Below, piece after piece: positions 281-13,923 of a stretch of 14,405 nt of DNA. Origin of the DNA: an uncultured bacterium (lineage in GTDB: Bacteria; Bacillota; Clostridia; Christensenellales; Pumilibacteraceae); assembly GCA_949747725.1 (NCBI GenBank), contig CATKFJ010000160.1, forward strand, positions 1 through 14,405. The letters run 5' to 3'. How positions within the stretch are numbered: the stretch's first letter is position 1; the number at the start of each line of letters is the position of its first letter. The translations under genes were made by a program, and so were the position numbers. The notes below the pieces were generated by a model. That model ran no database searches. It was not told where the DNA came from and saw nothing but the letters and a program-made list of their open reading frames with translations.

Positions 281-363
281 GTAAAAAATCTTGATTTACT
301 AAACCGTCGGTTTAGTTTGACGGTAAGGTATCCGAAGTTTTTTTGACATCATGTAAAATTTTC
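281..363 (+). repeat. Palindromic dispersed repeat, copy 1
   Basis: Layout in order: AAATC-TT-GATTT (286-297), the palindrome CTAAACCGTCGGTTTAG (299-315), ACGGTAAGGTATCCGAAG (320-337), a T-rich spacer, and GTAAAATTTTC (353-363). Same orientation as copy 2, opposite to copies 3 and 4. Confidence 0.85.
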
Positions 364-590
364 AAATGAGCGCGTCTTAAAACGGGCGGCGAGCTGCCGC
401 ATACGCTGTCGCAAAGATTATATTTCGCTGCCGTCAAATTACATCCGTATATTTGCGCGCCGCTTCGGAACTTCCATGAAAAAGTTTTACTTAAATCGCG
501 CAATGACTTTTCGTCCGTATAATTCCGAACGCTATAAAAAAACCTGAAGTTATTTACAAGCGACGAATTTTTATCCGTCAAACTTATTTT

Positions 591-670
591 AAAAAATCAC
601 GATTTGCTAAACCGACGGTTTAGCGTAACGGTAAGGGTATATAACTTTTTCTTTCCGCATGTTAAATTCC
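591..670 (+). repeat. Palindromic dispersed repeat, copy 2
   Basis: AAATC-AC-GATTT (594-605), palindrome CTAAACCGACGGTTTAG (607-623) with G/C extending it one base on each side, ACGGTAAGGGTAT (628-640), then GTTAAATTCC. It is more diverged than the others after the ACGGTAAGGGTAT block. Confidence 0.8.
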
Positions 671-695
671 GTCTCAGACCGCGAAAAACGGCATT

Positions 696-723
696 AAAAA
701 ACCGAGCTATTGCTCGGTTTTTT
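696..723. terminator. Bidirectional terminator
   Basis: Six A, stem CCGAGC/GCTCGG with loop TATT, then six T: symmetric, so it works on either strand. It lies five bases beyond the stop codon of the minus-strand small membrane protein gene and is its natural terminator. Confidence 0.85.
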
Positions 724-727
724 AGCT

Positions 728-991
728 CTATTGTTCGGATCTTTCTTCGGTATCGGCATTGTCCTCAACGTCGGCGTTTAACACGTTATCCGTATCGGGA
801 GCCGATTTCTCGACAGGCGGTTCGTTATTCGAATTTTCCTGATTTTCTTCGCTTTTTCTCTTTTTACGCTTGCCGTCCCACACTATATAAAACGCCAATG
901 CGCCGAATATGATCAAAAGAAAAAACACGCCCAATACGTAATACCACGGATTGCTCGGATCGTTAAATGCGTTTGATAAAAAAGTTGTCAT
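728..991 (-). CDS. Small single-pass membrane protein with charged tail
   Basis: An 87-residue protein I do not recognise. It has a short N-terminal segment, one hydrophobic helix (about residues 16-37), a basic stop-transfer cluster (KRKKRK) and an acidic, Asn/Glu/Asp-rich tail that looks disordered. The charge pattern predicts the N-terminus outside and the tail in the cytoplasm. ATG is preceded by AGGAG at a 5-base gap, and the gene has its own promoter and terminator, so it is a real unit rather than a trailing smpB cistron. Antisense frames over it are shadows. The function is unknown. Confidence 0.75.
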   Translation of the reverse strand: MTTFLSNAFNDPSNPWYYVLGVFFLLIIFGALAFYIVWDGKRKKRKSEENQENSNNEPPVEKSAPDTDNVLNADVEDNADTEERSEQ

Positions 992-1000
992 GTCGTCTCC

Positions 1001-1019
1001 TAATGTTTTTCTAACATTA
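1001..1019 (-). repeat. Inverted repeat in leader of the small membrane protein
   Basis: Perfect 7-base arms TAATGTT/AACATTA with a 5-base spacer. It overlaps the -10 edge and ends just before the ribosome binding site. It could be an operator or a leader hairpin, but the arms are AT-rich and short. Confidence 0.35.
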
Positions 1020-1048
1020 TTATACTAAATATCTGCGGTTTTTGTCAA
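1019..1048 (-). promoter_or_regulatory. SigA-type promoter of the small membrane protein
   Basis: TTGACA (1043-1048), an 18-base spacer and TATAAT (1019-1024) on the minus strand. Both hexamers match the consensus perfectly. Confidence 0.8.
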
Positions 1049-1075
1049 GCCCCTTCCAAAACAGTCGGCTTAAAA

Positions 1076-1576
1076 CTAATAATTGCTGATTTCGCGCGCA
1101 GCCGTGCGGTTAATATCGCGTTCTTTTATCACTTCTTTCTTTTCGTAGTTCTTTTTACCTTTGGCGAGCGCTATCTCCACCTTTACAAACCGACCTTTAA
1201 AGTACATTTTAACGGGTACGATAGTGTATCCCTTTTCTTTGGCTTTGGAAGTAAGCCTGTCGAGCTGAGCTTTATGGGCAAGCAATCGGCGCGAACGTCT
1301 CGGATCGGGAGCAAACGCTCCGACTTTGGCGTACGGCGTTATCTGACAGTTTTTCAGTTCGAGATTGCCGTTTTCCATAAAACAAAAACTGTCGCGCAAC
1401 GACACGTCGCCCTTTTTTATAGACTTAACTTCCGAACCTTCGAGCACAATTCCTACTTCCATGGTTTCCACGAAAAAGTAGTCGAACGCCGCTTTTTTAT
1501 TGACCGCAACCGTCTTATTTATCTGTGTCGCGGCTGTTCTTGCCTGTTTGTTTTTTCTTTCAGTCTTGCTTTTCAT
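1076..1576 (-). CDS. smpB: SsrA-binding protein SmpB
   Basis: SmpB binds tmRNA (SsrA) and delivers it to stalled ribosomes for trans-translation. Family landmarks seen: NKKAAFDYFFVETMEVGIVL, EVKSIKKGDVSLRDSF, PYAKVGAFAPDPRRSRRLL, YFKGRFVKVEIALAKGKKNY and the basic C-terminal tail (KKEVIKERDINR), which enters the decoding centre. I start at the ATG at 1574-1576, giving 166 residues. An upstream in-frame GTG at 1589-1591 would add only MWVSS and lies inside mnmE. One base separates this ATG from the mnmE stop codon, so the two are probably translationally coupled in one transcript. The tmRNA gene itself is not in the window. The identification is very secure. Confidence 0.96.
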   Translation of the reverse strand: MKSKTERKNKQARTAATQINKTVAVNKKAAFDYFFVETMEVGIVLEGSEVKSIKKGDVSLRDSFCFMENGNLELKNCQITPYAKVGAFAPDPRRSRRLLAHKAQLDRLTSKAKEKGYTIVPVKMYFKGRFVKVEIALAKGKKNYEKKEVIKERDINRTAAREISNY

Positions 1577-1577
1577 G

Positions 1578-2912
1578 CTACTTACCCACACAAAATCTTT
1601 CGAAAACCGACGAAATAACGCTTTCGTCCGCCTGTTCGCCGTACATTTCTTTTATAGCGGAATATGCTTCGTATAACAGCGCCGCAACTATTTCCAAGCC
1701 TCCGGCAACATTACACTCTTTTTCGGCAGCCTTAAGACTGTCTAAACACTTAACGGCGCATTCGTACTGACGGTGATTGCAAATAGATCCGTGATCTTTC
1801 GGACATAAGTCATACATCATCTGTTTTAGCGCGGTTACGTTTTTCCCTGTTTTGGCGCTTATTTTAAGCCTGCCGCTATCTATCGCCTTATTGTAATCTT
1901 CACCTACATCTTCCGTTCCGTCGCATTTATTTATTACCTTTATTAAATTTTTATATTCGTTTTCATTTTCAAACACCGTTTCGGCGCTTTCCGCCACAAA
2001 AACCACCGCATCGGCGTCATTAGCTGCGGATAAAGCCCGTTCGATACCTATTTTTTCCACCGCGTCGCGCGTGTCGCTTCTTAGCCCGGCTGTATCCGTT
2101 ACCGAAAACTTCCTGTCTTTATATACGAATTCTCCGTTCAAAGTATCGCGCGTCGTTCCGGCAATATCCGTTACTATAGCGCGGTCGCTATCCGTCAATG
2201 CGTTTAATAAAGTGGACTTACCTACGTTAGGCGCGCCTATAAGCGTAACTTTAAACCCGTCGTTTATTATTTTTCCGCCGGCAAATCCGTTTACTTCCTT
2301 TTCAAGCTCTGCAATTGCCTTTCCTATCGCGCCGTAAACGTCGTTTATAACGGCTTTATCTATCTCTCCGTCCTCGAGTTCGTCACTGTAATGCAAAACC
2401 GCCTCTATCGAGCTCAACGCCTTATTAAGCAATGATTCGGCGTTTCCGAGCGATTTAAACCCTCCGTCATACCGTGTGTTGCCGTAATTGAGCTGTTCGG
2501 CAGTTTGCGCGTCTATAATATCAGCAAGCGCTTCGCACTGCATCAGATCCACTTTTCCGTTCAAAAACGCTCTTTTTGTAAATTCTCCGCGTTCCGCGAG
2601 CCTTGCTCCGCCGCCTATCAGACTTTTAATTATCCCGTCGCAAATCGTCATGTTTCCGTGCGGAAACAATTCTACAAGGTCTTCTCCCGTATACGAATGA
2701 GGCGCTCTGTAACAAACCGCCATCAGCCGTTCCGTGAAATTATCACCTTTAAACACATTTACTTTCAACTGCCCTGCCTTTAGCTCACGCGACAAATATC
2801 GTGCCGCTAAATCTATGCAGCCGCTTCCGCTTACTCTTATTATTGCTACCGCCGACTTCCCGTACGGAGTCGCCAACGCCGTTATTATATCGTTTTTGTT
2901 TATTGTGTTCAT
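1578..2912 (-). CDS. mnmE: tRNA-modifying GTPase MnmE (TrmE)
   Basis: MnmE works with MnmG to install the aminomethyl-type modification on the wobble uridine of certain tRNAs. With the ATG at 2910-2912 the protein has 444 residues, close to the usual 450. The N-terminal folate-binding domain (ALATPYGKSAVAIIRVSGSG) is followed by the conserved RGEFTKRAFLNGKVDL helix region (about 108-123). The G domain has GAPNVGKS (226-233), GTTRDT (252-257), DTAG (273-276), NKCD (328-331) and SAK (352-354). The C-terminus ends in FCVGK with the conserved Cys441. A TTG at 2934-2936 could add eight residues, but neither start has a clear ribosome binding site. The partner gene mnmG, often adjacent, is absent here. 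Transcribed with smpB. Confidence 0.97.
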   Translation of the reverse strand: MNTINKNDIITALATPYGKSAVAIIRVSGSGCIDLAARYLSRELKAGQLKVNVFKGDNFTERLMAVCYRAPHSYTGEDLVELFPHGNMTICDGIIKSLIGGGARLAERGEFTKRAFLNGKVDLMQCEALADIIDAQTAEQLNYGNTRYDGGFKSLGNAESLLNKALSSIEAVLHYSDELEDGEIDKAVINDVYGAIGKAIAELEKEVNGFAGGKIINDGFKVTLIGAPNVGKSTLLNALTDSDRAIVTDIAGTTRDTLNGEFVYKDRKFSVTDTAGLRSDTRDAVEKIGIERALSAANDADAVVFVAESAETVFENENEYKNLIKVINKCDGTEDVGEDYNKAIDSGRLKISAKTGKNVTALKQMMYDLCPKDHGSICNHRQYECAVKCLDSLKAAEKECNVAGGLEIVAALLYEAYSAIKEMYGEQADESVISSVFERFCVGK

Positions 2913-3193
2913 AATTTTTGAACTTTTTGTAGACAACCTTTGATTTGTGGTTAAAATTTTTTCTATTTTTTCCGTTCTTTTAAAGCCGTTTTTTTGCTAT
3001 GTATATATCTTTTATATTATACACACCGTAGTCGACAAAATTAAACCGAATTATATACACTTTTACTTTTATGATTTATCCACTCCGTTGTATATTTTTT
3101 CTTTTAAACACGTATATTTTGTGTTTTTTTTTACTTATAAACATTTATACACACATTATCATCTTTATATCTGATAAAATATATATATAATAT
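2913..3193. other. Candidate replication origin (oriC)
   Basis: This very AT-rich gap between mnmE and rsmG has exact DnaA boxes TTATACACA at 3017-3025 and 3145-3153, and the one-mismatch box TTATCCACT at 3076-3084, all in the same direction. A weaker TTATATACAC is at 3051-3060. A nearly pure A/T tract (3175-3193, TAAAATATATATATAATATC) could be the unwinding element. It may also hold the mnmE promoter: a minus-strand TATAAT (3016-3021) overlaps the first box, with only a weak -35. GC skew changes across this gap, and parB with three parS sites lies about 5 kb away. No dnaA gene is in the window. This is inference from motifs. Confidence 0.6.
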
Positions 3194-3847
3194 CTACTCT
3201 TTAGCGTAAATGAATAAACGTCGTTTTATTTCGGTTTCGGGTAATACGTAATCGACAATGTTATGTAATTTTACATTGCATAATGTTTCGGTCGAAAGAG
3301 AAGCCCGTTCGTCGTTTTGCGTTCTGTAAAGAATTATCTTTCCGCCCGATCTCGTCAGCGGCGCGCAAAGCTTTATCGATTTATCGGGGTCAGCAACGGC
3401 GCGCGCACACACGGTATCGAATTTAACGTTATTTTTTGCGAGATCTTCCGACCGTGAGTACTCGGTATTGATATTTTTAAAATTGAGTTCCGATACGCAC
3501 CGTTTTATAAGAGTGAGTTTTTTTCCTACGCTTTCGATGCCTGTGAAGTTAAGATCGGTAACGATAGAGAGCGGAATGCACGGAAAACCTCCGCCGCAGC
3601 CGATGTCCGCACACTCGCCGTCGAAATATTTATACGGATACACACTGTCGAGATAATGTTTGATGTAAATATCGTCGTAATTGCGCAGAGCGGAAATATT
3701 TATTACCGAATTTACTTGAATGTACAGTTCAGTCAGTTTATCGAATATCTGCAAAAGATCTTTGTTTTCGAAATTGTTTAACAGAAAATCGGCAAAAATA
3801 CGCCGTCCGCGAGAGTTTTCAAGTTCGGAAGTCGAAATATTTTTCAT
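3194..3847 (-). CDS. rsmG: 16S rRNA (guanine-N7) methyltransferase RsmG (GidB)
   Basis: RsmG methylates N7 of a guanine in the 530 loop of 16S rRNA using S-adenosylmethionine. The 217 residues match the family length. Seen: the NISALRNYDDIYIKHYLDS block before the Rossmann domain, the SAM-binding loop ADIGCGGGFPCIPLSI, an acidic residue ending strand 2 (IESVGKKLTLIKR), and the CARAVADPDKSIKLCAPL segment. The ATG shares one base with the degV stop (TAATG), so translation is probably coupled. It is the last gene of the four-gene minus-strand operon. No good hairpin terminator follows before the candidate origin, which is notable since read-through would enter it. Confidence 0.95.
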   Translation of the reverse strand: MKNISTSELENSRGRRIFADFLLNNFENKDLLQIFDKLTELYIQVNSVINISALRNYDDIYIKHYLDSVYPYKYFDGECADIGCGGGFPCIPLSIVTDLNFTGIESVGKKLTLIKRCVSELNFKNINTEYSRSEDLAKNNVKFDTVCARAVADPDKSIKLCAPLTRSGGKIILYRTQNDERASLSTETLCNVKLHNIVDYVLPETEIKRRLFIYAKE

Positions 3848-4707
3848 TATCTTTTGTTTCCGTCGTTTATGTAAAGAATACCGAGAGTGCTTTTTCCGCA
3901 GTGACTGGTAATAGTAGAACCGGCGATCGTTTCGTGTATGTTTTCCGGCGCGAATCCGAAAGCGATAAGCTTTTGGCGTACCGCTTCTACGGTGTCGGCA
4001 TTAGCTTGCGTATGTGTTATAAAAACGTTACTTAAATCGGGCCTGTTATACCTTTCGAGCGTATAGTCAACGTATTTTAGAATGTTTTTATCGAAGTTGC
4101 CTAAAAATTTGCGCGCGACTGTAATGTTTCCTTCTATCAGTTGAAGCGTCGGTTTTATGGAAAATGCTTTTCCGAAGAATGCCGACAGTCCGCTGCACCG
4201 ACCGCCTTTGTATAAAAAGTCGAGCGTGTTTATCATAAATGACGCTTGAACTTCGTTTTTGCGCTTTTCTATTGTCTTTACTATATGTTCCGCGTCGATC
4301 CCGCGATCTCGCATATCGGCGGCGGCAAGCGCCAAAAGACCGGTCCCCGACGAAAGCGACAGTCCGTCTATAACATAAACGTTGTCGAGCCGTTTTGCCG
4401 CTGCGCATGCATAGTCGTATGTAGAAGAAATTTTAGACGATATTGCTATATGTATTACCGACTTTCCGTTGTCCGTGAAAGATTTGAAATAATTATAAAA
4501 ATCGTCTATTGACCGCGCCGCCGTTTTTGGAAGATCGCCCGTTTTCGCGTAATGATCGAATATCATAGTAGGATCGATATCCACGTCGTCGAGATACTGT
4601 TTATCGTCGAGAATGACATAAAGAGGAAATTCGCCTATTTCTCTCGATTTAAAAAGGCTGTTCAGATCGGATGCGCTGTCCGTAGTTATAACTGTATTTA
4701 AAGCCAT
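3847..4707 (-). CDS. DegV family fatty-acid-binding protein
   Basis: A 286-residue full-length DegV/FakB-like protein. Members bind a fatty acid and present it to the FakA kinase domain for phosphorylation. Seen: N-terminal TDSASDL, PKTAARSIDDF at the position of the usual TSQPS-type ligand motif, ISSKISSTYDYA, the characteristic NTLDFLYKGGRCSGLSAFFG segment, and SHCGKSTLGILYI near the C-terminus, where most members have HxGPG; here PG is KS. The start has a GGTGAT ribosome binding site five to six bases away. It follows the signal peptidase gene by 45 bases and overlaps rsmG by one base. Its ligand is unknown, and no fakA is in the window. Confidence 0.92.
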   Translation of the reverse strand: MALNTVITTDSASDLNSLFKSREIGEFPLYVILDDKQYLDDVDIDPTMIFDHYAKTGDLPKTAARSIDDFYNYFKSFTDNGKSVIHIAISSKISSTYDYACAAAKRLDNVYVIDGLSLSSGTGLLALAAADMRDRGIDAEHIVKTIEKRKNEVQASFMINTLDFLYKGGRCSGLSAFFGKAFSIKPTLQLIEGNITVARKFLGNFDKNILKYVDYTLERYNRPDLSNVFITHTQANADTVEAVRQKLIAFGFAPENIHETIAGSTITSHCGKSTLGILYINDGNKR

Positions 4708-4752
4708 ATTATCACCTTTTTTGTTATTTAAAAGTTATAAAAATATAACAAA

Positions 4753-5403
4753 TTATAAAATTTTAAGCACTTTTGACGTAATTTTATCGATAGTGCGTGT
4801 GCCGTAATATCTGCTATCTTTGGAATTATTGCGATTGTCGCCGAGAAAAAATATGCTGTTTTCCGGAACGGTAATTATTGATTTTTCTATTTTTGAAAGC
4901 TCGGCATGTAATGACGGATCTTTTATGTTAAGTTCGGTGAGTAAAGGAGTATAGTTTAAAACTATTACGTTTTCGTATACGCCTATAGCACGGCTCATGG
5001 GCTCTTTAATATAAGGTTCGTCAAGCAACTCGAAATAGTTATTTTCCGCTTTGCAAATATACAGATCTACCGTTCTATTGTTCTTAGAAGACATAAAGAC
5101 GAGCTTGTCGCCGCTCATACCGACTACTCTTTTGATAACGATATGTTGTTCTTTTTTGTTTACCGAAGTATTTATAGTTACTATATCGTTATATTGCACG
5201 TTGAAACATCTGCGTTGTACAATACAATATTGTTCGTTGTGCAGTGTGTTTTCCATGCTGTCCCCGTCTACGGGAACAAGGGCTAAAAAGAAAAATGTAG
5301 TAATAACGCCTATAAGCAGGAAAATCAAAGCATACATAAATATGCCGATAAGAGGTTCGCGTCTGTTTAAAAGGTTTTCTCCCGAATTTATTTTATCGTT
5401 CAT
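4753..5403 (-). CDS. lepB: Signal peptidase I
   Basis: This membrane serine protease (S26 family) removes signal peptides from exported proteins. The 216 residues have one N-terminal membrane helix (about 18-43), the catalytic serine in DGDSM (Ser49), the catalytic lysine in IVIKRVVG (Lys91), and box E FFLGDNRNNSKDSRYYG with the conserved GDN and DSR. The active site therefore faces outside, anchored by the N-terminus as in Gram-positive type enzymes. ATG lies four bases after the stop of the upstream hydrolase-like gene (TAACGACATG) without a strong ribosome binding site, so coupling is likely. Its physical link to the hydrolase-like gene is unusual, and a dedicated substrate is possible but unproven. 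It could equally be the general signal peptidase. Confidence 0.93.
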   Translation of the reverse strand: MNDKINSGENLLNRREPLIGIFMYALIFLLIGVITTFFFLALVPVDGDSMENTLHNEQYCIVQRRCFNVQYNDIVTINTSVNKKEQHIVIKRVVGMSGDKLVFMSSKNNRTVDLYICKAENNYFELLDEPYIKEPMSRAIGVYENVIVLNYTPLLTELNIKDPSLHAELSKIEKSIITVPENSIFFLGDNRNNSKDSRYYGTRTIDKITSKVLKIL

Positions 5404-5407
5404 GTCG

Positions 5408-7009
5408 TTATACCCAAATTACAGAATCTACGGTAAAACTTTCATCCGATGAAAATTCCAAAACAAGAATTTGCGACCAATCGACCAATGTGCCGTTTTG
5501 ACCTTTAAAATTATGATGTGCCAACGAAAATTTATACCAATCGTCCGACGTTTTTATGTCTACTTGACAACTGTATTCGTAATTCATATCTTTAACCGTC
5601 ACGGTCAGAGTTTGCGGTTTTCCGCATACCATTATTTGAAGAAGCGTGTCTGTCGGAACTTTAAACAACGGATCTCCGGGCTTGAAAGTTATAAGAGATC
5701 CGTTGTCAGACGTTACTCCCTCTATGTCGTAAGGACCTTTTTTAAGATAAACCTTTTCGCCGTTTCGCGCTATCCAGCCGTCCTTACCCATGCTCGAATC
5801 GTAAATTTTGCGGTGACTTACTCCGGGTTTGGACTTGATGCCGAGAGTTTTGGGCAGAATGTTAAAAACTACCGACGAATTTTCACGCGCGGTCGTGCCG
5901 TCGTCGTTCGGCAATGTTATATTTGCAAAGGCATATATAGGCTTTTCGGATTGACACACGTTTATATGCGAGATGTAGCCGTTTTCGCCCAAATTGATCG
6001 TCGAAAGCTTCATCCAATTTCGATATCGCGCGTCCTCTATGCAAAATGCTACATAAAGATCGAGATCGTATTGCGGTAAATTATCGCTGTTTTGAATTAA
6101 ATCACTGTCGTCGGAAGAAATAGTTATATTAAAATAAAGATTTCCTTCCGAATTAGAGGCTTTTATTTCGGGCGTCAGTATTGGAGCTTGATAATTTTCG
6201 AAGAAATCGATCACTTCGCCGTAGATATTATTTATTCCGCAACGGAATGAGCGCTCTATTATTCTGAAACATTTAAGCGACGCCGTTTCGTCGGCAAGCT
6301 CGGACATTTTATCGAGCGAACCGTCTTCGTCGTTTGACGCCACGCCCATAAATAACGGAAGCTTACAAAGTGTAGCATAAGCTAAGTTATCGAGCGACGC
6401 GTGATAATTTATTATCTCATTACCCGAACCCGATACTTGTGGATTTATGTTTAACAGCGTAGCGCAGGCTTTAATGCCGTCGTCGAATGCCGCAAGCTTA
6501 TATACAGTACATCCGCCAAGACCGATGCCTAAAGCAAAAATGTCCGCGTCATACAGTTTTTTAAGAAGTTTAACGGCGCGGCGCGCAATGCACGTCCACA
6601 TATACCAGCGGCTATACTGCGCGTCCGCGGCAAGTTTGAATACATCACAGCCGCGGCTGTTACAAATATCGAGCGATCGAGGATAAAGAGTATATCTTGC
6701 GATGTCATCCGATTTTCCCAAATAATCCAATACGGCAACGGTGTATCCGCGCGAATAAAGATTTTTTATCGCGTTGGCATTGATTGAATCATCCACGCTC
6801 GGAACAAACAAAATAACGCCCTTCGCGGACGGGTTTTCGCTTATACGCATAAAAGCGCGCACTCTGCCGTCTACCGTTACATGACCGTCAAAGTAGAATT
6901 CCCGTATACATATACCGTTATCGGTTTTTTCGGAAAGCGCGTACTCGTTAAACGGCAAAGCCGTTACGTCGTAATCTTTCCATAAACTGCTGGGACTCGT
7001 TATATCCAA
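5408..7009 (-). CDS. Alpha/beta-hydrolase-like protein lacking nucleophile Ser, with beta-rich C-terminal region
   Basis: A 533-residue cytoplasmic protein with no signal peptide. Residues about 35-280 look like an alpha/beta-hydrolase of the dienelactone hydrolase/acetyl xylan esterase type: GVILFVPSVDD then YSRGYTVAVLDYLGKSD, and the elbow region FALGIGLGG followed by KACATLL. The nucleophile position, normally Ser in GxSxG, is Gly163 (GIGLGG), and no His is seen where the catalytic His normally follows (IERSFRCGIN). It is probably a non-catalytic hydrolase fold. Residues about 285-533 are beta-rich, end in VLEFSSDESFTVDSVIWV, and resemble a carbohydrate-binding jelly roll in feel only. The TTG start has GGAG six bases upstream and follows a consensus promoter. 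It heads the operon with lepB, degV and rsmG. Confidence 0.75.
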   Translation of the reverse strand: MDITSPSSLWKDYDVTALPFNEYALSEKTDNGICIREFYFDGHVTVDGRVRAFMRISENPSAKGVILFVPSVDDSINANAIKNLYSRGYTVAVLDYLGKSDDIARYTLYPRSLDICNSRGCDVFKLAADAQYSRWYMWTCIARRAVKLLKKLYDADIFALGIGLGGCTVYKLAAFDDGIKACATLLNINPQVSGSGNEIINYHASLDNLAYATLCKLPLFMGVASNDEDGSLDKMSELADETASLKCFRIIERSFRCGINNIYGEVIDFFENYQAPILTPEIKASNSEGNLYFNITISSDDSDLIQNSDNLPQYDLDLYVAFCIEDARYRNWMKLSTINLGENGYISHINVCQSEKPIYAFANITLPNDDGTTARENSSVVFNILPKTLGIKSKPGVSHRKIYDSSMGKDGWIARNGEKVYLKKGPYDIEGVTSDNGSLITFKPGDPLFKVPTDTLLQIMVCGKPQTLTVTVKDMNYEYSCQVDIKTSDDWYKFSLAHHNFKGQNGTLVDWSQILVLEFSSDESFTVDSVIWV

Positions 7010-7038
7010 GGCCGGCTCCGAATTGAAAAATTTTTCGT

Positions 7039-7067
7039 ATTATATATCATTTTCGCTCTTTTGTCAA
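7039..7067 (-). promoter_or_regulatory. SigA-type promoter of the hydrolase-lepB-degV-rsmG operon
   Basis: Minus strand TTGACA (7062-7067), a 17-base spacer and TATAAT (7039-7044): both hexamers match consensus. It lies 30 bases before the TTG start and is divergent from the parB promoter. Confidence 0.85.
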
Positions 7068-7207
7068 GTAATTGCATTGTAGCGGAACGCATGCGCCATA
7101 TCTTTTCGCGCCTTAAAACGATAATTATTTTTAAATTCATTGCTTTTTATATATATTTCCCTATATTCCGCCATTTCGCGTTTGGTTAGCAGCGCCATAT
7201 AATTTGC

Positions 7208-7236
7208 TTGACTTATACGCTTGCGCCGTATATAAT
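7208..7236 (+). promoter_or_regulatory. SigA-type promoter of parB
   Basis: TTGACT (7208-7213), a 17-base spacer and TATAAT (7231-7236), 26 bases before the parB ATG. A GGAG ribosome binding site is at 7251-7254. No parS sequence is seen at this promoter, so self-regulation through parS here is not indicated. Confidence 0.85.
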
Positions 7237-7262
7237 ATAATAAAAAACAACGGAGATATATT

Positions 7263-8141
7263 ATGGCACCGATAAGAAAAGGCGGTTTGGGACGCGGTTT
7301 GGGCGCATTGCTCAGCGATATCGAGGAAGAGTCGGTTATTGGCACAACGGAAACGTCCGAGATGCTGTTATCCAATATCGACCCCAATATCGATCAACCT
7401 CGAAAGCAGTTTAACGACGACGCGCTTGCCGCGCTCGTGGAAAGCATTAAAAAACACGGCGTTATTACCCCTCTTATAGTTACGCCTAAACCCGACGGCA
7501 GATATATGATAATTGCCGGAGAACGTCGCTACAGGGCGGCGACTGCCGCGGGACTTGTTTCCGTACCCGTATGTGTGCGCGAGTGTACGCCTGTAGAAAT
7601 AGACGAGCTGTCACTTATAGAGAATATTCAGCGCGAAGACCTGAATCCTATGGAAGTAGCGCGCGCCATAAGAAAACTTATGGACGATTACGGATATACT
7701 CAAGAGGAAGCGGCGGAGCGTATCGGTAAAGCGCGTCCCACCGTAGCTAACCTTTTGCGCCTTATGGAACTTTCCGAACCCGTGCAAAAATTAGTAGAAA
7801 GCGGCAACCTTTCCGCCGGACACGCGAGATGTTTGGTAGTAGTTGCCGACCCCGCTCTTCAAGCCGAGCTTGCAGATAAGGGTCGCGACGATAAAATGAG
7901 CGTGCGCGAATTCGAAAAACTCGTTAAAAACACAGTAAATCCCAAAAAGAAAGTCGAACCCGTAAAACAAAGCCTCGAACTTAAAGATATGGTCGTGCGC
8001 ATGCAGCGAACATTCGGAACAAAGGTTTCTTTGCTCGGCAACGATAATAAGGGTCGTATATTTATAGACTATTATACTCCCGACGATCTGAGCCGAATCG
8101 AGAGCATGTTAGCTTATTTGGAGCAGAATTACAGAAACTAA
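7263..8141 (+). CDS. parB: Chromosome-partitioning protein ParB (Spo0J family)
   Basis: ParB is a CTP-dependent DNA clamp that loads at parS and spreads to organise the origin region and recruit condensin. The 292 residues show the N-terminal ParA-stimulating patch (GLGRGLGALL), DQPRKQF, the CTP-binding motifs GERRYRAA (86-93) and ENIQRED (120-126), the helix-turn-helix TQEEAAERIGKARPTVANLL (146-165), and a C-terminal dimerisation domain (about 238-292). It has its own promoter and a good ribosome binding site. parA, normally just upstream, is missing: the neighbour is a divergent hydrolase-like gene. Three parS sites follow directly after its stop codon. Noc, a paralogue, is less likely because the sites match parS rather than the Noc site. 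Confidence 0.96.
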   Translation: MAPIRKGGLGRGLGALLSDIEEESVIGTTETSEMLLSNIDPNIDQPRKQFNDDALAALVESIKKHGVITPLIVTPKPDGRYMIIAGERRYRAATAAGLVSVPVCVRECTPVEIDELSLIENIQREDLNPMEVARAIRKLMDDYGYTQEEAAERIGKARPTVANLLRLMELSEPVQKLVESGNLSAGHARCLVVVADPALQAELADKGRDDKMSVREFEKLVKNTVNPKKKVEPVKQSLELKDMVVRMQRTFGTKVSLLGNDNKGRIFIDYYTPDDLSRIESMLAYLEQNYRN

Positions 8142-8157
8142 TGTTTCACGTGGAACA
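8142..8157 (+). promoter_or_regulatory. parS site 1
   Basis: TGTTTCACGTGGAACA matches the Firmicute parS consensus TGTTNCACGTGAAACA at all but one base. It starts at the base right after the parB stop codon. Confidence 0.93.
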
Positions 8158-8179
8158 TAAAATATTGACTTAAAAACAG

Positions 8180-8195
8180 TGTTTCACGTGGAACA
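8180..8195 (+). promoter_or_regulatory. parS site 2
   Basis: TGTTTCACGTGGAACA, identical to site 1, starting 38 bases after it. Confidence 0.93.
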
Positions 8196-8216
8196 ATAAA
8201 CAAAACCTATAAAAAT

Positions 8217-8232
8217 TGTTTCATGTGAAACA
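8217..8232 (+). promoter_or_regulatory. parS site 3
   Basis: TGTTTCATGTGAAACA has the perfect palindromic arms TGTTTCA/TGAAACA but a central AT in place of CG, and starts 37 bases after site 2. The regular 37-38 base steps put the sites at about three and a half helical turns apart. Confidence 0.88.
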
Positions 8233-8236
8233 TTGC

Positions 8237-8275
8237 AAAATAAAAGAACGCTCTGTACGAGCGTTCTTTTATTTT
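8237..8275. terminator. Bidirectional terminator between parB and the ferritin-like gene
   Basis: A perfect 17-base-pair stem (AAAATAAAAGAACGCTC and its complement) has loop TGTAC. A/T runs at both ends serve both strands. Its last base is the first base of the stop codon of the minus-strand gene. Confidence 0.9.
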
Positions 8276-9534
8276 CAGTCTTGCTTAGTTCGTCCGATAT
8301 TTATATTGTCTTCTTTGCGGTTTCTCAAGCATTTAACGGGGTGTTCGGCAACGGTAAATCGGTAGTCTTCGCCGAATTCGGCAATATAACTGTCTATTAC
8401 CTTGTGGCTGGCAACTGCGGACGGAGTTTTATTAACGGCATTGTTATATTTAAAATATTCGTAATCGTCGGGAATATTGTTGAGATCGGTATACTCTTCG
8501 AGTACCGAAGTGTTGTTTATGGTGTTTTTCAAAATATTGCGTATATAATGTTTGTTCTTTTCGCAATTATCGTTAAATGTCAGAAGCGTGGGGAATTCGG
8601 CGTTGGGTATTACCTGTGCCCATTCCTTGCCCTCGTACTTCTTTAAAAGCTCCGCGGCATAGTGCAGGTGCGACAGTTCCTGCTCGAAGTGAGACGTCCA
8701 TATTTTTTTGGCGACGTCGTTTGTTTCTTCGCTCATTGCGGAATAATACAGATAGCACTCGCAATATTCGTGCATTAAAAGACATTCGAGCCATGTTGTG
8801 CTTGCGTCCATAAGCGATTCGTATTGAGAAACGTGTTGTTCTTCTATCATGCCGATCTCGAGAAAAAGTTTTCTGCCCAAATCGGAAGTCGGATAGAACG
8901 TGCCGAGATTCATATAGAAATTCATAGTTTGCTGTTCGGCAGCGGTGATTATCATTGTGTGAAGCTTTGTTGCAAGCGACGCGTCGGGAGTTACCGGACG
9001 ACGAATATCGTCAAACGGATGGCGGTGTTCTGCGATAGTCGGTCTGCCGGGCATTATTTCGGTATAACTGCCGACTAACTTTTCGCCCGTTATGCCCTGT
9101 TCCATTTCCAAAAGATCGCTGAATCGATACAGATGATCGAAGTCTTCAAGGAGAGCAAAGTCGAGTGCGGCTTTAACGTATTTGTTCTTTTCCGTTTGGG
9201 CAAGAACTGCGGTAAGATCTACCGCGAGTTGCTCATAGGAAATAGTAGTTTCGAGCGCCGTTTCGTCCTTAGGCTTAAAGAACGATATGCGTTTTTGTTG
9301 TTGCTGTTCGAGTTTACGCAAGTAACCTACGTCGCGGCGAAGATTGTTGTCTGTGGTGTGTCTGGCAAGCTGATGCATAAACCAAGCTTCTTCGAATTCC
9401 GCTCCGTTTAGTAAGATAGTGCGTACTTTGGTGTAAGCGTCCGTGCTGTTTTTATCGTAAGACGTGGGATATATTTTTCTCCAATCCGCAACGCACTTCT
9501 CGATCTTGCACGGTTTTTCGTTAAAAGGATTCAT
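8275..9534 (-). CDS. Ferritin-like di-iron protein, 419 residues
   Basis: I do not recognise a named family. The core at residues 190-300 has the ferritin-like di-iron signature over four helices: Glu200 (TAAEQQTMNFY), Glu231-x-x-His234 (EEQH), Glu256/Glu259 (HEYCECYLYY) and Glu286-x-x-His289 (ELSH). This arrangement binds two metals in rubrerythrin-, ferritin- and oxygenase-type proteins. The N-terminal 190 residues are also helical and Glu/His-bearing (GAEFEEAWFMH; LLEDFDHLYRF) and could be a second bundle. It lacks a signal peptide and a rubredoxin-type CxxC pair, so it is not a classical rubrerythrin. ATG has a perfect GGAGG six bases upstream. It is monocistronic, with the phospholipase D-like gene divergent. 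A role in oxygen or peroxide defence in an anaerobe is inference. Confidence 0.75.
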   Translation of the reverse strand: MNPFNEKPCKIEKCVADWRKIYPTSYDKNSTDAYTKVRTILLNGAEFEEAWFMHQLARHTTDNNLRRDVGYLRKLEQQQQKRISFFKPKDETALETTISYEQLAVDLTAVLAQTEKNKYVKAALDFALLEDFDHLYRFSDLLEMEQGITGEKLVGSYTEIMPGRPTIAEHRHPFDDIRRPVTPDASLATKLHTMIITAAEQQTMNFYMNLGTFYPTSDLGRKLFLEIGMIEEQHVSQYESLMDASTTWLECLLMHEYCECYLYYSAMSEETNDVAKKIWTSHFEQELSHLHYAAELLKKYEGKEWAQVIPNAEFPTLLTFNDNCEKNKHYIRNILKNTINNTSVLEEYTDLNNIPDDYEYFKYNNAVNKTPSAVASHKVIDSYIAEFGEDYRFTVAEHPVKCLRNRKEDNINIGRTKQD

Positions 9535-9615
9535 AATTTACCTCCGAAAATAATTGTTGGCAACAGTTAAAAGCTTTAAACATATTTAATTAAAACAGTA
9601 GCGTTTTAAAAAGCT

Positions 9616-11085
9616 ATGTGTTACAATATGACTGTGAAACCGTTGCATAAAAAGAAAGCTGTATTGCTGTATGAAACAAGAATGCGCGTCGGATTTGTCG
9701 TGATGACCGTGGTATTCTATTTGTTGGCGGCGATTATTTGGTACATGCTTGCGGCGGTATTGCCCTACACTCAAACGGTAAATGTGTCCGAAAGCGAAAA
9801 TGTGTTTATCACGCGCGAAGCGTTGTCCGCATCGCAAGAGCAAATAAATAGATCGGAGCGGCTTAAAGAACGTGTGTTGCTCATGCCTACGAGCGAGAGC
9901 ACGTTTAACAGACGACTCAAACTGATAGCCGACGCAAAGGAAACCGTCGATTTTATGGTTTTCGATACCTATGCCGGAGATTTTACAGATATCTTTTACG
10001 GCGCGCTTATAAACGCTGCCGATCGCGGAATAAAAGTGCGCGTTGTGCTCGACGGTAAAATGGGCAAACTCGGCGGATCGCTCAAGCCTATAGAAAATTT
10101 GTTATCAAATCATAACAATATCGAACTGTATTTTTTTAAAGGGGTGAACGTATTCGATCCGGGCGGTTTAATGACGCTTATGCATGATAAACTGACCGTT
10201 GTCGACGGCGATAAATGCATCGTCGGGGGCGTAAATATGGGTACGGGCGCATATTTATCCAATTTCGACATGGAAGTCATGGTGACGAACAGCGGCGCAA
10301 ACGGGGCTGCCGGACAGGTAAAACACTATTACGAAACTATGTTGAAAAGCGGCTTGGTCAAGCGATTTACGTCAAAAATCGACGATATAGAGGCAAAAAA
10401 ATTATATATCGGCAAATATACGGAATATTTTGCAAAAAGCGAGTTTGCGAACGCAACGATAGATTATGCAAGCCAAGGCGTTGCGGTCGATAAAATAACT
10501 TTGGTGAATAACAGAATTTCGGCGCGCAAGAAATCGCCTATTATTTGGCAAGCGCTGTATAATTTAATGTATGACGCAAAAAAATCTATCCTTGTAACAC
10601 CGTATACTCTGTTACAAAACGATAAAAAAGATCAGATCAAAAGTCTGGCGGCACGCAACGATGAGTTTGTTTTGATTACTAATTCGCTGTATAATACGCG
10701 TAACGTGGGGTATGCCGATTATTATTACACGCGCAAAGCTTATTTGACCGACGATATTAAACTGCTCGAATATCAAGCGGAGAATCAATTGCATGCCAAA
10801 ATGTTCGCAATAGACGATCGTTACAGCATTATAGGATCGTTCAACCTCGACGAACGCAGCATTCATATCGATACGGAAAGCGTTTTGGTGATCGATTCGC
10901 CGGCGTTCAATAAAATATTGACCGATTATATTACCGATACAATGGTAAATAACAGCCTTGAAGTCGGAAAGGACAACGAGTATATTTTGACCGAAAATAT
11001 ACCGTCCGCGCCGACCGTAGACGCCGCCAAACGGTTTAAATACGCTATATACAGAGTACTCGGCGTGGTAAGATGTTTGATATAA
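9616..11085 (+). CDS. Membrane-anchored phospholipase D-family protein (cardiolipin synthase-like)
   Basis: A 489-residue protein with one N-terminal membrane helix (about 25-50) and two HKD motifs. The first is HDKLTVVD followed by GGVNMG (His190, about 190-207), the second HAKMFAID followed by GSFNLDERS (His393, about 393-414). Paired HKD motifs form one active site, and this domain order fits cardiolipin synthases, which transfer phosphatidyl groups between phosphatidylglycerols at the membrane. Classical bacterial Cls has two N-terminal helices, so another phosphatidyltransferase or phospholipase is possible. The start is uncertain: ATG at 9616 and at 9628 both lack a clear ribosome binding site. 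A weak promoter, TTGGCA (9557-9562) with CATATT (9581-9586), lies upstream. Confidence 0.88.
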   Translation: MCYNMTVKPLHKKKAVLLYETRMRVGFVVMTVVFYLLAAIIWYMLAAVLPYTQTVNVSESENVFITREALSASQEQINRSERLKERVLLMPTSESTFNRRLKLIADAKETVDFMVFDTYAGDFTDIFYGALINAADRGIKVRVVLDGKMGKLGGSLKPIENLLSNHNNIELYFFKGVNVFDPGGLMTLMHDKLTVVDGDKCIVGGVNMGTGAYLSNFDMEVMVTNSGANGAAGQVKHYYETMLKSGLVKRFTSKIDDIEAKKLYIGKYTEYFAKSEFANATIDYASQGVAVDKITLVNNRISARKKSPIIWQALYNLMYDAKKSILVTPYTLLQNDKKDQIKSLAARNDEFVLITNSLYNTRNVGYADYYYTRKAYLTDDIKLLEYQAENQLHAKMFAIDDRYSIIGSFNLDERSIHIDTESVLVIDSPAFNKILTDYITDTMVNNSLEVGKDNEYILTENIPSAPTVDAAKRFKYAIYRVLGVVRCLI

Positions 11086-11099
11086 TAATTGGGAGTTCG

Positions 11100-11127
11100 G
11101 CTTACTTCTTTTGTAAAAGAAGTAAGC
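11100..11127 (+). terminator. Strong hairpin after the phospholipase D-like gene
   Basis: Perfect 13-base arms GCTTACTTCTTTT/AAAAGAAGTAAGC are separated by two bases, 15 bases after the stop codon. There is no U run after it, so it may be an inefficient terminator, an RNA 3'-end stabiliser or an intergenic palindromic repeat unit. Confidence 0.5.
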
Positions 11128-11231
11128 AAGAAAACCTTTAGTGCCGTGTGTTTACTTAGGCTGTTTGTTGTAGGTTGCACCCGAATAGTTTTATGACGTT
11201 AGAAATTTATCGGACGCCACTATGTATTAGC

Positions 11232-11363
11232 ATATAGATCCCTCGAGAGGGCAAAAAACGCTCGGAATGACATGGTTGGGCTTGTCCTTTCGACTGAAGG
11301 GCGTCATGTCCTTTCCATGTCTTTTCGACCGAAGTGAGCGTAGCGAACGGAGCGGAGAAATCT
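11232..11363. repeat. Degenerate intergenic repeat of the TTCGACCGAAG...GAGAAATCT type
   Basis: The segments ATAGATCCCTCGAGAGGG, CGCTCGGAATGACA and TTCGACCGAAG...GGAGAAATCT resemble widespread short intergenic repeats of gut bacteria (AGATCCCTCGAC...CGCTCGGGATGAC and relatives). The match is from memory. Several short inverted repeats, such as CCCTC/GAGGG (11240-11251), lie within. Non-coding. Confidence 0.45.
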
Positions 11364-11418
11364 TCGGTTGCTTAACCGCCGCGACAGCGGTCATCAAGTC
11401 CGAATTATGCTTTGCCGT

Positions 11419-11453
11419 CGCCGTTTTAAGCTTGATAACCGCTTAAAACGGCG
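11419..11453. repeat. Perfect 13-base-pair inverted repeat beside repeat copy 3
   Basis: CGCCGTTTTAAGC and GCTTAAAACGGCG are separated by 9 bases (TTGATAACC). There is no T run, so it is not a standard terminator. It ends 10 bases before copy 3. A CTTAAAACGGGCGGC-like block sits at the same end of copy 1 (376-390), so this may be part of a longer element. Confidence 0.6.
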
Positions 11454-11462
11454 TTCTGTATT

Positions 11463-11540
11463 GAAATTTTACACGGAGAAAGGAAATTTTCGGATACCCT
11501 TACGGTGCGCTAAACCGACGGTTTAGTAAATCGAGATTTT
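11463..11540 (-). repeat. Palindromic dispersed repeat, copy 3
   Basis: Reading on the plus strand: GAAATTTTACACGG (11463-11476), TTCGGATACCCTTACGGT (11489-11506), palindrome CTAAACCGACGGTTTAG (11510-11526), then AAATC-GA-GATTT (11528-11539). It is the reverse complement arrangement of copies 1 and 2. Confidence 0.85.
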
Positions 11541-11567
11541 GTCGAAATAATTTGAAGGTTGATTTTT

Positions 11568-11595
11568 ATCGGCAGGATAATATTCTGCCGATTTT
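11568..11595 (+). terminator. Terminator-like hairpin between repeat copies 3 and 4
   Basis: A perfect 8-base-pair stem ATCGGCAG/CTGCCGAT with a 9-base loop is followed by TTT. No gene precedes it, so it may end an unrecognised short RNA or be part of the repeat neighbourhood. Confidence 0.4.
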
Positions 11596-11715
11596 CGTTA
11601 TGCGCGCGTAAAATTTCGAAAAAATAAAACTTTAAGTATAAGCGTATAGAAACTCGAACTCGCCGTTTGCTAAAACAACCGATATGCCAAATAGAAAATA
11701 ATGGCGCGCTGTAAC

Positions 11716-11796
11716 GAAATTTTACACGGACAATAAAAATCTTCGGATAGTCTACCGTCGAGCTAAACCGGCGGTTTAGTAAATCAAGATTTTTTT
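11716..11796 (-). repeat. Palindromic dispersed repeat, copy 4
   Basis: GAAATTTTACACGG (11716-11729) is identical to copy 3. Then come CTTCGGATAGTCTACCGTCG, palindrome CTAAACCGGCGGTTTAG (11763-11779), AAATC-AA-GATTT (11781-11792) and a T run. Only the central base of the palindrome varies across the four copies (T, A, A, G). Confidence 0.85.
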
Positions 11797-11946: not shown

Positions 11947-12078
11947 ATGGCTAATACGAAGAAGACAACGACTCGCAATTGCTCCGGCAAGAAGTCGAAC
12001 GGTACTCAAACTTGCAGCAGCAAGACTACCGGCAAAGCGACTCGTACGCAGAGCAAAAAGTCTAACACGGTTAAATAA
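11947..12078 (+). CDS. 43-residue Lys/Thr/Ser-rich basic protein
   Basis: The frame begins MANTKKTTTRNCSGKKSNGT and ends SKKSNTVK. About half of its residues are Lys, Thr or Ser, with three Arg, two Cys, no Asp or Glu and no aromatic residue. The composition resembles small nucleic-acid-binding or histone-H1-like tails, but no named family is recognised. Support for expression: AAGGGGG at 11928-11934 (spacing about 12, rather long), an upstream TATAAT, and a bidirectional terminator at 12186-12219. Codons are varied (ACG, ACA, ACT, ACC), so it is not a simple DNA repeat. It stands alone between non-coding stretches. It could be disordered and unstable, or cell-surface debris of a longer gene, but nothing suggests truncation. 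Confidence 0.6.
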   Translation: MANTKKTTTRNCSGKKSNGTQTCSSKTTGKATRTQSKKSNTVK

Positions 12079-12243: not shown

Positions 12244-13923
12244 TTATAAAAGAACGATATAAATAATATCGGCGTTAAATTTTATAATATCCGAGTTTGC
12301 GATTATGCATGTGTATGAACCGTCATCGTTATCGATTATAAACCACGGCGTGCCGTTTACCGTTAATTTGACCGACGCGCTGTCTACAAACAAAGTATTT
12401 TCGGCGTATTCGAGTATAGTTATCGCGTATCCCGAACTTTCGGATTCTATGTCTATAATGATAGGGTCTTCGGCAGAATATTCAGCGACGATAATTTCGT
12501 TCCCGATATCGAAACGGAGCAATATATTTTGCGCTTTAAAATAAGCGATGCCGTCATATTTAATTCCGTCGGCTGTCAACTCTATCATTTTACCGTCGAT
12601 ATTCCAATGCCCGTTGCCGTAATTCAAATCGACGGGATTTCCGTCGATCTCGGAGTTGTCGGGCGCAAGCACGATAACCGTATCGGCATTATAATAAGTG
12701 CCGTAAACGTCGGCGACGATCTCAAGCTTTCCCGTCAGTTTCAGCGGAAGATACCCGTCTTTCACAAGAATAATATCGTCGGTATAAACCCCGATTTCGA
12801 TATATTGCGGAGTCGATTCGGTAGGGAAAACAACTTCGCCGTCATAGTCAAATTCATAACCGTGCGGCAAACCGTCGTAAATATACAGCAGCGACGGTAA
12901 CGCTATCGATTGTTCGGACAGCAGTTCGAAGGGAATATCTAAGCGCGTGACCGTTGCCGACGAGTTTACGGCAAATGTGCAATGCGACATATCGTAATTA
13001 AAATAAATACCGTCGGGACAATAATTAACGTTGGAAATAACGCATAATATTTCGTTAGTCAATTGAATTTCCGCGCAATTATTTATAAAATAAATATCCA
13101 ACGAAATAGTGTCCGAATATGCATAACAATAGTTGCCGTTTATGCAAAATATATTCGAATTCGACGGAATTTTATCGAAATTAACGTCGTTTACGCAACA
13201 AATATCGTTTTTTACGTAAAAATCCGTTTCGCTATTTATTTTACCGTTCCCGTCCACGCCGTAGAAAATAGGTAATTCGTCGTTATCGAATATACAGGTA
13301 TTTTCGGTTAAAATAATAATTCCGTAATTTTTATTCAAATACTTTCCGCTAATATTCGGTAAAATAAAAAGCGTGGACGAGTCGGCATAATCGCCGTAAA
13401 GCCCGTTCACGCGGTAGTAGATCGTGTATTGCCCGATTTCGGTGCATTCAACGGTTTGGGTAAAGTTAATGCCGTCGAGCGAGTACGATATATCGTCGGC
13501 AGAAGACGTTCCGATAATATCGATACAGTGCGGTGAGCCGTCATAAACGACTGTTTTGTTCGGCGCCGAAACGTTATTTAATACAGACCGTGAGATCGTG
13601 ATCGTTGCGTAAGCATAAAGATCTTTAAAACCGGCGCGCGTAACGTGATAATACACTTTATAAACGTCGGGAACGGTAAAAGTCGGCGGAACTTCCGACC
13701 AATGCACATTGTCTGTCGAATATAAAACAACGTCGGAAGCTTGAGTATTATTGACGGTTATGGTATGCGGAGAGCCGTCATAAACTACGTTTACGTCCGT
13801 TGCGTAAACGTCGGCGATCTCGGGCGGATCGGAGCCGACGGGCGACGAACATGCGGAAAAGCAAAGAACGGAAATGGTAAAAAGCATGACGATCAGCGAA
13901 ATCGTCAAGACGGTTTTCTTCAT
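12244..13923 (-). CDS. Secreted lipoprotein with YDG (MBG/Ig-like) repeats
   Basis: A 559-residue protein with a lipoprotein signal: MKK, hydrophobic core, then FSAC with the lipidated Cys25. It should be anchored to the outer face of the membrane. Two clear Ig-like repeats begin VVYDGSPHTITV (about 47) and VVYDGSPHCIDI (about 124), and a third starts YIYDGLPHGYEF (about 347). This Tyr-Asp-Gly-x-Pro-His signature is typical of bacterial MBG-type beta-sandwich surface domains. The rest is beta-rich, strongly acidic and Asn/Ile/Tyr-rich, with no catalytic motif seen. ATG has AGGAG seven bases upstream and a good promoter. It stands alone. Adhesion or structural surface roles are possible; none is shown. 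Confidence 0.85.
   Translation of the reverse strand: MKKTVLTISLIVMLFTISVLCFSACSSPVGSDPPEIADVYATDVNVVYDGSPHTITVNNTQASDVVLYSTDNVHWSEVPPTFTVPDVYKVYYHVTRAGFKDLYAYATITISRSVLNNVSAPNKTVVYDGSPHCIDIIGTSSADDISYSLDGINFTQTVECTEIGQYTIYYRVNGLYGDYADSSTLFILPNISGKYLNKNYGIIILTENTCIFDNDELPIFYGVDGNGKINSETDFYVKNDICCVNDVNFDKIPSNSNIFCINGNYCYAYSDTISLDIYFINNCAEIQLTNEILCVISNVNYCPDGIYFNYDMSHCTFAVNSSATVTRLDIPFELLSEQSIALPSLLYIYDGLPHGYEFDYDGEVVFPTESTPQYIEIGVYTDDIILVKDGYLPLKLTGKLEIVADVYGTYYNADTVIVLAPDNSEIDGNPVDLNYGNGHWNIDGKMIELTADGIKYDGIAYFKAQNILLRFDIGNEIIVAEYSAEDPIIIDIESESSGYAITILEYAENTLFVDSASVKLTVNGTPWFIIDNDDGSYTCIIANSDIIKFNADIIYIVLL

Follow-up and report, generated by a model that had tools for sequence, protein, structure and literature searches.

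Ter sites, which are bound by RTP or Tus, are polar, are present in multiple copies, and lie in opposite orientation on the two chromosome arms at the terminus. Another set of chromosomal sites is bound by the TetR protein RefZ, which recognizes five near-palindromic RefZ-binding motifs (RBMs): each arm carries two, and a fifth is near oriC. The RBM positions are conserved across Bacillus, and precise capture of the chromosome in sporulation requires RefZ (PMC6657595). In this study, we analyzed a 14,405-nucleotide stretch of DNA, which is the entire contig C160 (CATKFJ010000160.1) of an Anaerocaecibacter-type genome (GCA_949747725.1; 1,616,348 bases in 410 contigs, 78.8% complete) and is referred to as "the window". 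The genus Anaerocaecibacter, whose members are gut bacteria, is assigned to the Pumilibacteraceae, Clostridia (NCBI). The window carries four copies of an intergenic element built around a 17-bp palindrome. These copies frame the origin region and face into it, an arrangement conserved in position, polarity and sequence, and, within the reach of our searches, the element occurs at the origin only and in one genus among those searched.

The element copies and the block they frame

In the 19 same-genus genomes with an assembled origin, the copies sit on either side of a single conserved block that contains oriC, parB and parS. All 60 copies (left copies on the + strand, right copies on the − strand) point inward round this same block, and at least one perfect palindrome is present on each side of it in all 19 genomes, the nearest ones lying 2.1-4.7 kb to the left and 6.0-9.1 kb to the right of the oriC midpoint. 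The copies were scored with a sequence-only profile (R1), for which 58 copies from 18 fetched regions and the window were aligned, with one degenerate copy (L092) excluded. The copies and their palindromes in the window are:

282..382, + strand: element copy 1, left outer, pointing toward oriC; profile R1, 78.1 bits (training-set copy), and alignment
590..692, + strand: element copy 2, left inner, pointing toward oriC; profile R1, 71.3 bits (training-set copy)
11435..11541, − strand: element copy 3, right inner, pointing toward oriC; profile R1, 81.6 bits (training-set copy)
11689..11795, − strand: element copy 4, right outer, pointing toward oriC; profile R1, 81.1 bits (training-set copy)
299..315: 17-bp palindrome, centre T; exact match
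607..623: 17-bp palindrome, centre A; exact match
11510..11526: 17-bp palindrome, centre A on the + strand; exact match
11763..11779: 17-bp palindrome, centre G on the + strand; exact match

All four copies are found where an earlier note on this DNA had placed them, and the palindrome is, as that note had said, constant apart from its centre, with the CTAAACCGNCGGTTTAG arms being the same in all four. The note had also listed a fixed order of further blocks, which are less constant than claimed: ACGGTAAGGGTATCCGAA is exact in none of the four copies (copy 3 is closest, with one mismatch), and CGTGTAAAATTTC is kept only in copies 3 and 4. The profile matches make the element about 20 bp longer than previously delimited. 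The description of an intergenic, multi-part element under selection and without the layout of a miniature inverted-repeat transposable element (MITE) was correct. What had been overlooked is the polarity (copies 1 and 2 are on the + strand and copies 3 and 4 on the − strand, both pairs facing into the window) and the inward framing of oriC and parS, which is kept across the genus.

Genes for SmpB, MnmE, RsmG, a signal peptidase, ParB, and proteins of 419 and 533 amino acids (aa) without a Pfam family are present in the block in all 19 genomes. In the window, the following features of the block and its edges bear on the argument:

728..991, − strand: orf7, small protein with a membrane-bound look by eye; left block edge (opposite side in 4 of the 19 genomes)
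1076..1591, − strand: smpB; left edge of the conserved block
1578..2936, − strand: mnmE
2937..3193: probable oriC, the mnmE-rsmG gap; 78% A+T, two relaxed DnaA boxes (3017, 3145), skew turn inside the block
3194..3847, − strand: rsmG
7263..8141, + strand: parB; Pfam ParB_N and HTH_ParB
8142..8232: three parS-like sites (8142, 8180, 8217), each with at most two mismatches to the parS consensus
8275..9534, − strand: gene for the 419-aa protein; right part of the block, 19 of 19 genomes
9616..11085, + strand: phospholipase-D-domain gene; right block edge in 11 of 19 genomes

The origin of replication is probably located between mnmE and rsmG, at positions 2937-3193 of the window. Over the 19 genomes, the mnmE-rsmG gaps (258-316 bp), taken with 60 bp on each side, contain 31 relaxed DnaA boxes in 7.8 kb, compared with none in the two gaps round parB and 13 in the remaining 157 kb of the block, which amounts to a density about 50 times that of the remaining block. 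By the relaxed pattern, no DnaA box was found in this gap in G001, G011, G013 and G016. The GC skew changes sign within the block on all four long contigs, with the cumulative minimum falling between the left and right copies. As this minimum is mostly nearer parS (it is closer to parS than to the mnmE-rsmG gap in G001, G014 and G002, and near the gap in G016), the exact origin point is less certain than the block. Inside the block, one to three parS-like sites (defined as above) occur per genome in the 19 genomes. In all 19 same-genus genomes having both, dnaA is on a contig other than that of the element, and the locus may provide an example of an oriC between mnmE and rsmG with dnaA elsewhere.

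Some neighboring genes deserve mention. The 419-aa protein, which is ferritin-like by eye and has no Pfam or NCBIfam match, is encoded beside parS in all 19 genomes, and its gene is also near parB in three genomes of genus g18. Directly outside the right-hand copies, at 11947-12078 of the window, a short open reading frame (ORF) with a good-looking ribosome site (by eye) codes for a peptide of 43 residues, with many K, T and S and two cysteines. Further out, at 12244-13923, lies the gene for a 559-aa protein, lipoprotein-like by eye and without a Pfam match; the gene contains two similar 46-nt stretches, at 13529 and 13766.

Anatomy and constraint

The anatomy of the element was read from the alignment consensus of 59 copies. 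On the outer side, an A tract, which is a T tract instead in six to nine copies according to the column, is followed by TC-TT-GATTTA and then by the palindrome, CTAAACCG-N-CGGTTTAG. After it come Y-N-N-N-ACGGTAGGGTATNCGAAA and a pyrimidine-rich stretch, and the inner part consists of TGTAAAATTYYG and an end reading WNTNANANCGYC, the C and G of which (alignment columns 111-112) are 97-98% conserved. Conservation drops to background past both element edges. The palindrome is exact in 47 of the 60 copies, carries one or two mismatches in 12, and is further off in one (the extra copy at L095:16102-16211), while the GGGTAT box is missing from both copies in G001 and G003 and from the right copies in G014 and G018.

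Since the palindrome is conserved among genomes whose core proteins are 62-98% identical, it is strongly constrained. G004 and G012, the most similar pair (98%), have different centre bases in two of their three orthologous copies, with no difference in the arms. Concerted evolution is weak, with an identity outside the palindrome of 0.60 within genomes versus 0.55 between them. Judged from the alignment, the pattern is that of a putative protein-binding palindrome with asymmetric accessory boxes.

A structured RNA was considered and rejected. RNAalifold folds the palindrome hairpin alone (7 bp), and a covariation check suggested by the earlier note gave compensated (double) changes in none of the seven stem pairs over 58 copies. 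In the window, no Rfam match is above its gathering score (best E 0.088); copy 2 is overlapped by a Leu_leader match at 592-725 that stays below threshold (25.7 bits versus a gathering score of 50, E 0.1). Terminator-like hairpins occur at 694-725 and 11568-11592, separate from the copies, and none was found inside the window copies.

Distribution in the genome, genus and family

The exact 17-mer occurs four times in the window's genome, each time on the window contig, compared with 0.0003 occurrences expected in 1.6 Mb from base composition. Allowing up to three mismatches adds five palindrome-like places in this genome, of which the profile matches only one, weakly (on C225; 14.6 bits, E 0.045); the other four are not among the nine profile matches of the genome. 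Two or three exact palindromes, on a single contig and spanning 8-13 kb from first to last, were found in 18 of the 19 other same-genus genomes, and none in 131 genomes of other genera, giving 19 positives among 151 genomes with the window's own included. The exception, G008 (76% complete), has no exact palindrome and no parB match either, so its origin region is probably unassembled. The element is thus found in every same-genus genome with an assembled origin region and is restricted to one genus among those searched.

The profile search was run with stricter filters, and 49 of several hundred first-look candidates were scored per genome; because of this number it could miss diverged copies, a limit from which the exact-pattern searches are free. 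In 19 genomes the profile finds 60 copies, two to four in each, 59 of them scoring at least 64 bits and a single degenerate one scoring 42.8 bits; 58 of the 60 built the model and two are outside the training set. Among the 49 candidates scored per genome in 74 family genomes (including 20 of the genus), every match with E ≤8e-11 belongs to a same-genus genome and lies on its origin contig, and no strong copy was seen at any other locus. The next matches are opposite-strand readings of the palindromes in these copies, and the best matches elsewhere are at E of about 1e-3.

Outside the genus, matches are weak or partial. In genus g18 they lie on contigs other than that of parB (best G062, E = 0.011), and viral contigs gave one match, to the palindrome only, at 18.4 bits. 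Twenty of 56 database contig stretches were taken as outside the genus; 17 of these have partial matches round the palindrome of at most 20.8 bits, and the other three (L043, L077 and L081) have no profile match. By our own arithmetic, about 60 chance matches to 16 fixed bases are expected in 257 Gb. A palindrome with two mismatches located 25 kb from parB in G007 was rejected as an element (L229 has no profile match). We also searched 20 parB regions from other genera of the family for repeated palindromes and for inverted repeats of at least 35 nt, and found no flanking inverted element of this kind, only three of the 20 containing smpB. These regions yielded only a dispersed GGCGATTC repeat with a few short palindromes (L204, L206) and repeats in L210 and L211. 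As a separate observation, GGCGATTCNNGAATCGCC in G030, G034 and G052 (L204, L206) is usually followed by CCTAC; the other 71 family genomes lack any exact copy.

We rejected a dispersed repeat or mobile element, as profile and exact pattern both gave no strong non-origin copies in the 20 same-genus genomes. "Repeat family", the term used in the earlier note, is therefore misleading: we found no copies beyond the four in the genome, which is what the note itself had said would speak against a dispersed repeat. Its suggestion of recent copying agrees poorly with the presence of the element at the same locus in 19 species with core proteins 62-98% identical. Our literature search, most subscription papers and preprints being outside its reach, gave no description of this element and brought up Anaerocaecibacter in one paper.

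Inversions and changing neighbors

Gene order (REARRANGEMENT) was compared with longer flanks, and the S10 and L2 operon was identified by Pfam. In 10 genomes this ribosomal operon is found on the side of smpB; G002 and G009 have it on the opposite side, and in seven it is outside the compared stretches. The orf7 gene is on the smpB side in 14 genomes, including G018 (where it was grouped in one of two comparisons), lies beyond the opposite element in four (G001, G003, G006 and G009), and could not be located in G017. G016 shows the succession operon, element, orf7, element, smpB and onward; G009 has operon, element, orf7 and element, followed by the block reversed, which places an inversion between the inner copies. 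At least two inversions are needed, or three if the side of orf7 in G001 and G003 reflects an inversion rather than a lone move of orf7, as judged by eye on the core-protein tree. The genes adjoining the element, and their direction, vary between species while the element stays, and the inversion breakpoints fall in the element-bearing gaps.

As origin-centred inversions are common in bacteria and usually arise by homologous recombination at repeats (PMC9584773), breakpoints at the elements may be a by-product rather than a function. In the half-flank comparison, the flanks were too diverged, and neighboring copies lay too close (within the 400-bp flanks), for an exchange inside the element to be demonstrated. 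No obvious transposase or recombinase was seen by eye among the flank ORFs read. Two further features were noticed: parB is inverted within the origin block in one of the 19 genomes (L103, G017), and an inverted repeat of about 100 bp lies directly outside the elements of A. muris (G016; L102, 3171-3400 and 15709-16550).

A candidate binding protein

There are three to nine TetR matches in each of the 20 genus genomes; 91 of the 103 were fetched, and one ORF per locus was clustered. One family is present in 19 of the 20 genomes, once in each among the matches fetched, and has an invariant RKTFYR in its recognition-helix region in spite of whole-protein identities down to 34%. This near-universal family is a candidate binder, which we treat as a lead. 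In A. muris its gene is at G016:C6:36635-37192. The family is not beside the origin in the loci fetched, and in L285 and L290, the two loci read, its gene is downstream of a phosphatase-like gene. A second TetR family is present in 16 of the 20 genomes. As 91 of the 103 matches were fetched with one ORF per locus, the absence of the first family from G011 and the four absences of the second may be gaps. A third cluster, of 14 members, was rejected as neighboring ABC ATPases rather than TetR proteins. Protein searches with the first two families reach about 50% identity, and genus restriction is beyond their power.

Possible functions of the element

We consider it an even chance that the copies are origin-border elements, i.e., intergenic, polar, multi-part binding sites at both edges of the oriC and parB/parS region. 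A homodimeric DNA-binding protein would grip the 17-bp palindrome, and the asymmetric boxes (on the outer side, the A/T tract and TCTTGATTTA; on the inner side, ACGGTAGGGTATNCGAAA, TGTAAAATT and a CGWCTGAGAACGCC-like end) would orient this protein, further copies of it, or a partner. The complex would act on the whole origin region (its position, its segregation, or the septum site over it) and not on a neighboring gene, and the one to three copies per side would provide redundancy. An organizing or positioning role is preferred because the position of the element relative to oriC is maintained while its neighbors change, and because the RefZ-RBM system is a close parallel. As the Spo0A C-terminal domain is present (E ~1e-42) in 15 of the 16 same-genus genomes searched, a role in sporulation like that of RefZ is possible.

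Several points weigh against this proposal. The RefZ model (NF037937) is above its cut-off in none of 25 genomes, 16 of them same-genus. RBMs set the limits of the chromosome portion that the forespore captures (PMC6657595), whereas the elements here lie within about 10 kb of oriC. A simple palindrome binder would have no need of strict polarity, which suits functions at replication forks or in recombination equally well, and the inversions at the elements fit these two possibilities, too. The distance from the origin is a further difference, with RBMs lying much further from oriC than these elements. Finally, the right copies are 135-1030 bp upstream of the gene for the 419-aa protein in the eight genomes without the phospholipase-D gene there, and a copy is 24-150 bp upstream of orf7 in four genomes, both of which a transcriptional operator would explain as well.

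Among other explanations, a polar fork barrier or pause site, where a bound protein stops or slows forks coming from one side (outgoing forks under stress, or returning ones), is in our opinion unlikely. The uniform orientation relative to outgoing forks in 60 of 60 copies speaks for it, as do the tandem redundancy, which occurs in Ter clusters, and the possibility that stalled forks explain the inversions with breakpoints at the elements. However, a strong block to outgoing forks 2-9 kb from oriC would halt replication unless regulated, and the RTP family (PF02334) is above cut-off in none of the 25 genomes (best same-genus E 0.05), Tus not having been searched for. Another possibility is that a recombinase uses the inverted copies to flip the origin block: inverted pairs flank the block, the S10 operon and orf7 change sides between genomes, and G016 and G009 have orf7 between two copies and the block inverted between the inner copies, respectively. 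We nevertheless regard such site-specific recombination as decidedly unlikely, as no recombinase was seen by eye in the flanks read, directly repeated copies would be deleted, and the common origin inversions of bacteria usually arise by homologous recombination at repeats. The usual crossover regions are of 2 bp (serine recombinases) or 6-8 bp (tyrosine recombinases), whereas the palindrome here has a one-base centre.

A transcriptional operator or promoter element, which was the TetR idea of the earlier note, is improbable. The palindrome has the size of a TetR operator, TetR matches are present in every genus genome, and the copies upstream of the 419-aa gene (eight genomes) and orf7 (four genomes) would be well placed; yet no promoter-like match overlaps a copy in the window (the single genome scanned), there are no strong copies at other loci, and ordinary operator use fits poorly because neighboring genes and their direction change between species. 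It is quite improbable, too, that the copies are boundaries or loop anchors limiting ParB spreading or SMC movement from parS, with a convergent polarity like that of eukaryotic CTCF sites. They do bracket parS (3.3 kb to the right and 7.5 kb to the left in the window) and are convergent in all 19 genomes, but the distances to parS are unequal and we know of no bacterial precedent. Least credible of all, and very improbable, is a structured RNA or the relic of a mobile element: the 7-bp hairpin and the sub-threshold Leu_leader match at copy 2 are set against the absence of any compensated pair and of any Rfam match above gathering score in the window, and a mobile relic against the lack of strong copies elsewhere in the 20 genus genomes and of a transposase among the flank ORFs read.

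A more far-reaching form of the border proposal, which we put forward tentatively and think somewhat doubtful, is that convergent, orientation-strict protein sites bound the oriC and parS domain. They would form a polar border, serving as loop anchor, fork gate or origin-flipping site, that evolved in one genus and has been kept throughout it. If this is true, an origin region can have edges that are defined by sequence and depend on orientation, only a few kilobases away from oriC, and the locus would be a simple natural setting in which to study: the limits of ParB spreading; the guidance of SMC; fork pausing; and the positioning of the septum. The exact motif given here could be used for fishing out the binder in a named strain, A. 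muris CLA-AA-M11.

Comparison with known systems

Among known systems, the elements differ from Ter sites in framing the origin and not the terminus. They resemble parS (the sites of ParB/Noc) in being palindromic and origin-proximal, but have another sequence (the 16-bp parS consensus is unmatched) and asymmetric flanking boxes, and separate parS-like copies lie inside the block. With E. coli datA and DARS1/DARS2 they share the character of non-coding sites tied to replication control; unlike these, they have no DnaA box seen in the consensus and are present in two to four copies beside oriC. The multiple dispersed copies of a MITE or mobile repeat were not found, nor were the many dispersed intergenic palindromes of repetitive extragenic palindromic (REP) sequences or bacterial interspersed mosaic elements (BIMEs), there being four copies at one locus. 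The REP-like GGCGATTCNNGAATCGCC of G030, G052 and G034 is also a short palindrome, but is present 26-69 times per genome on many contigs. As regards site-specific inversion systems, we observed between-species inversions with breakpoints in the element gaps, and found no recombinase by eye among the flank ORFs read.

The RefZ-RBM system is similar in having a few near-palindromic sites that flank oriC at positions conserved genus-wide, and, as proposed here, in acting on a chromosome region rather than a promoter. It is different in that RBMs are not described as having polar composite boxes or an inward rule (PMC6657595). We rejected membership in this system, as the RefZ protein itself was not found at its cut-off; NF037937 has weak TetR-type matches in five of the 16 same-genus genomes, and among the controls one of 14 genomes is above the cut-off, with B. 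subtilis among the matching genomes. The element is probably a docking site for a protein that handles the starting region of the chromosome. We place it among the origin-proximal landmark sites, as a polar and origin-framing element.

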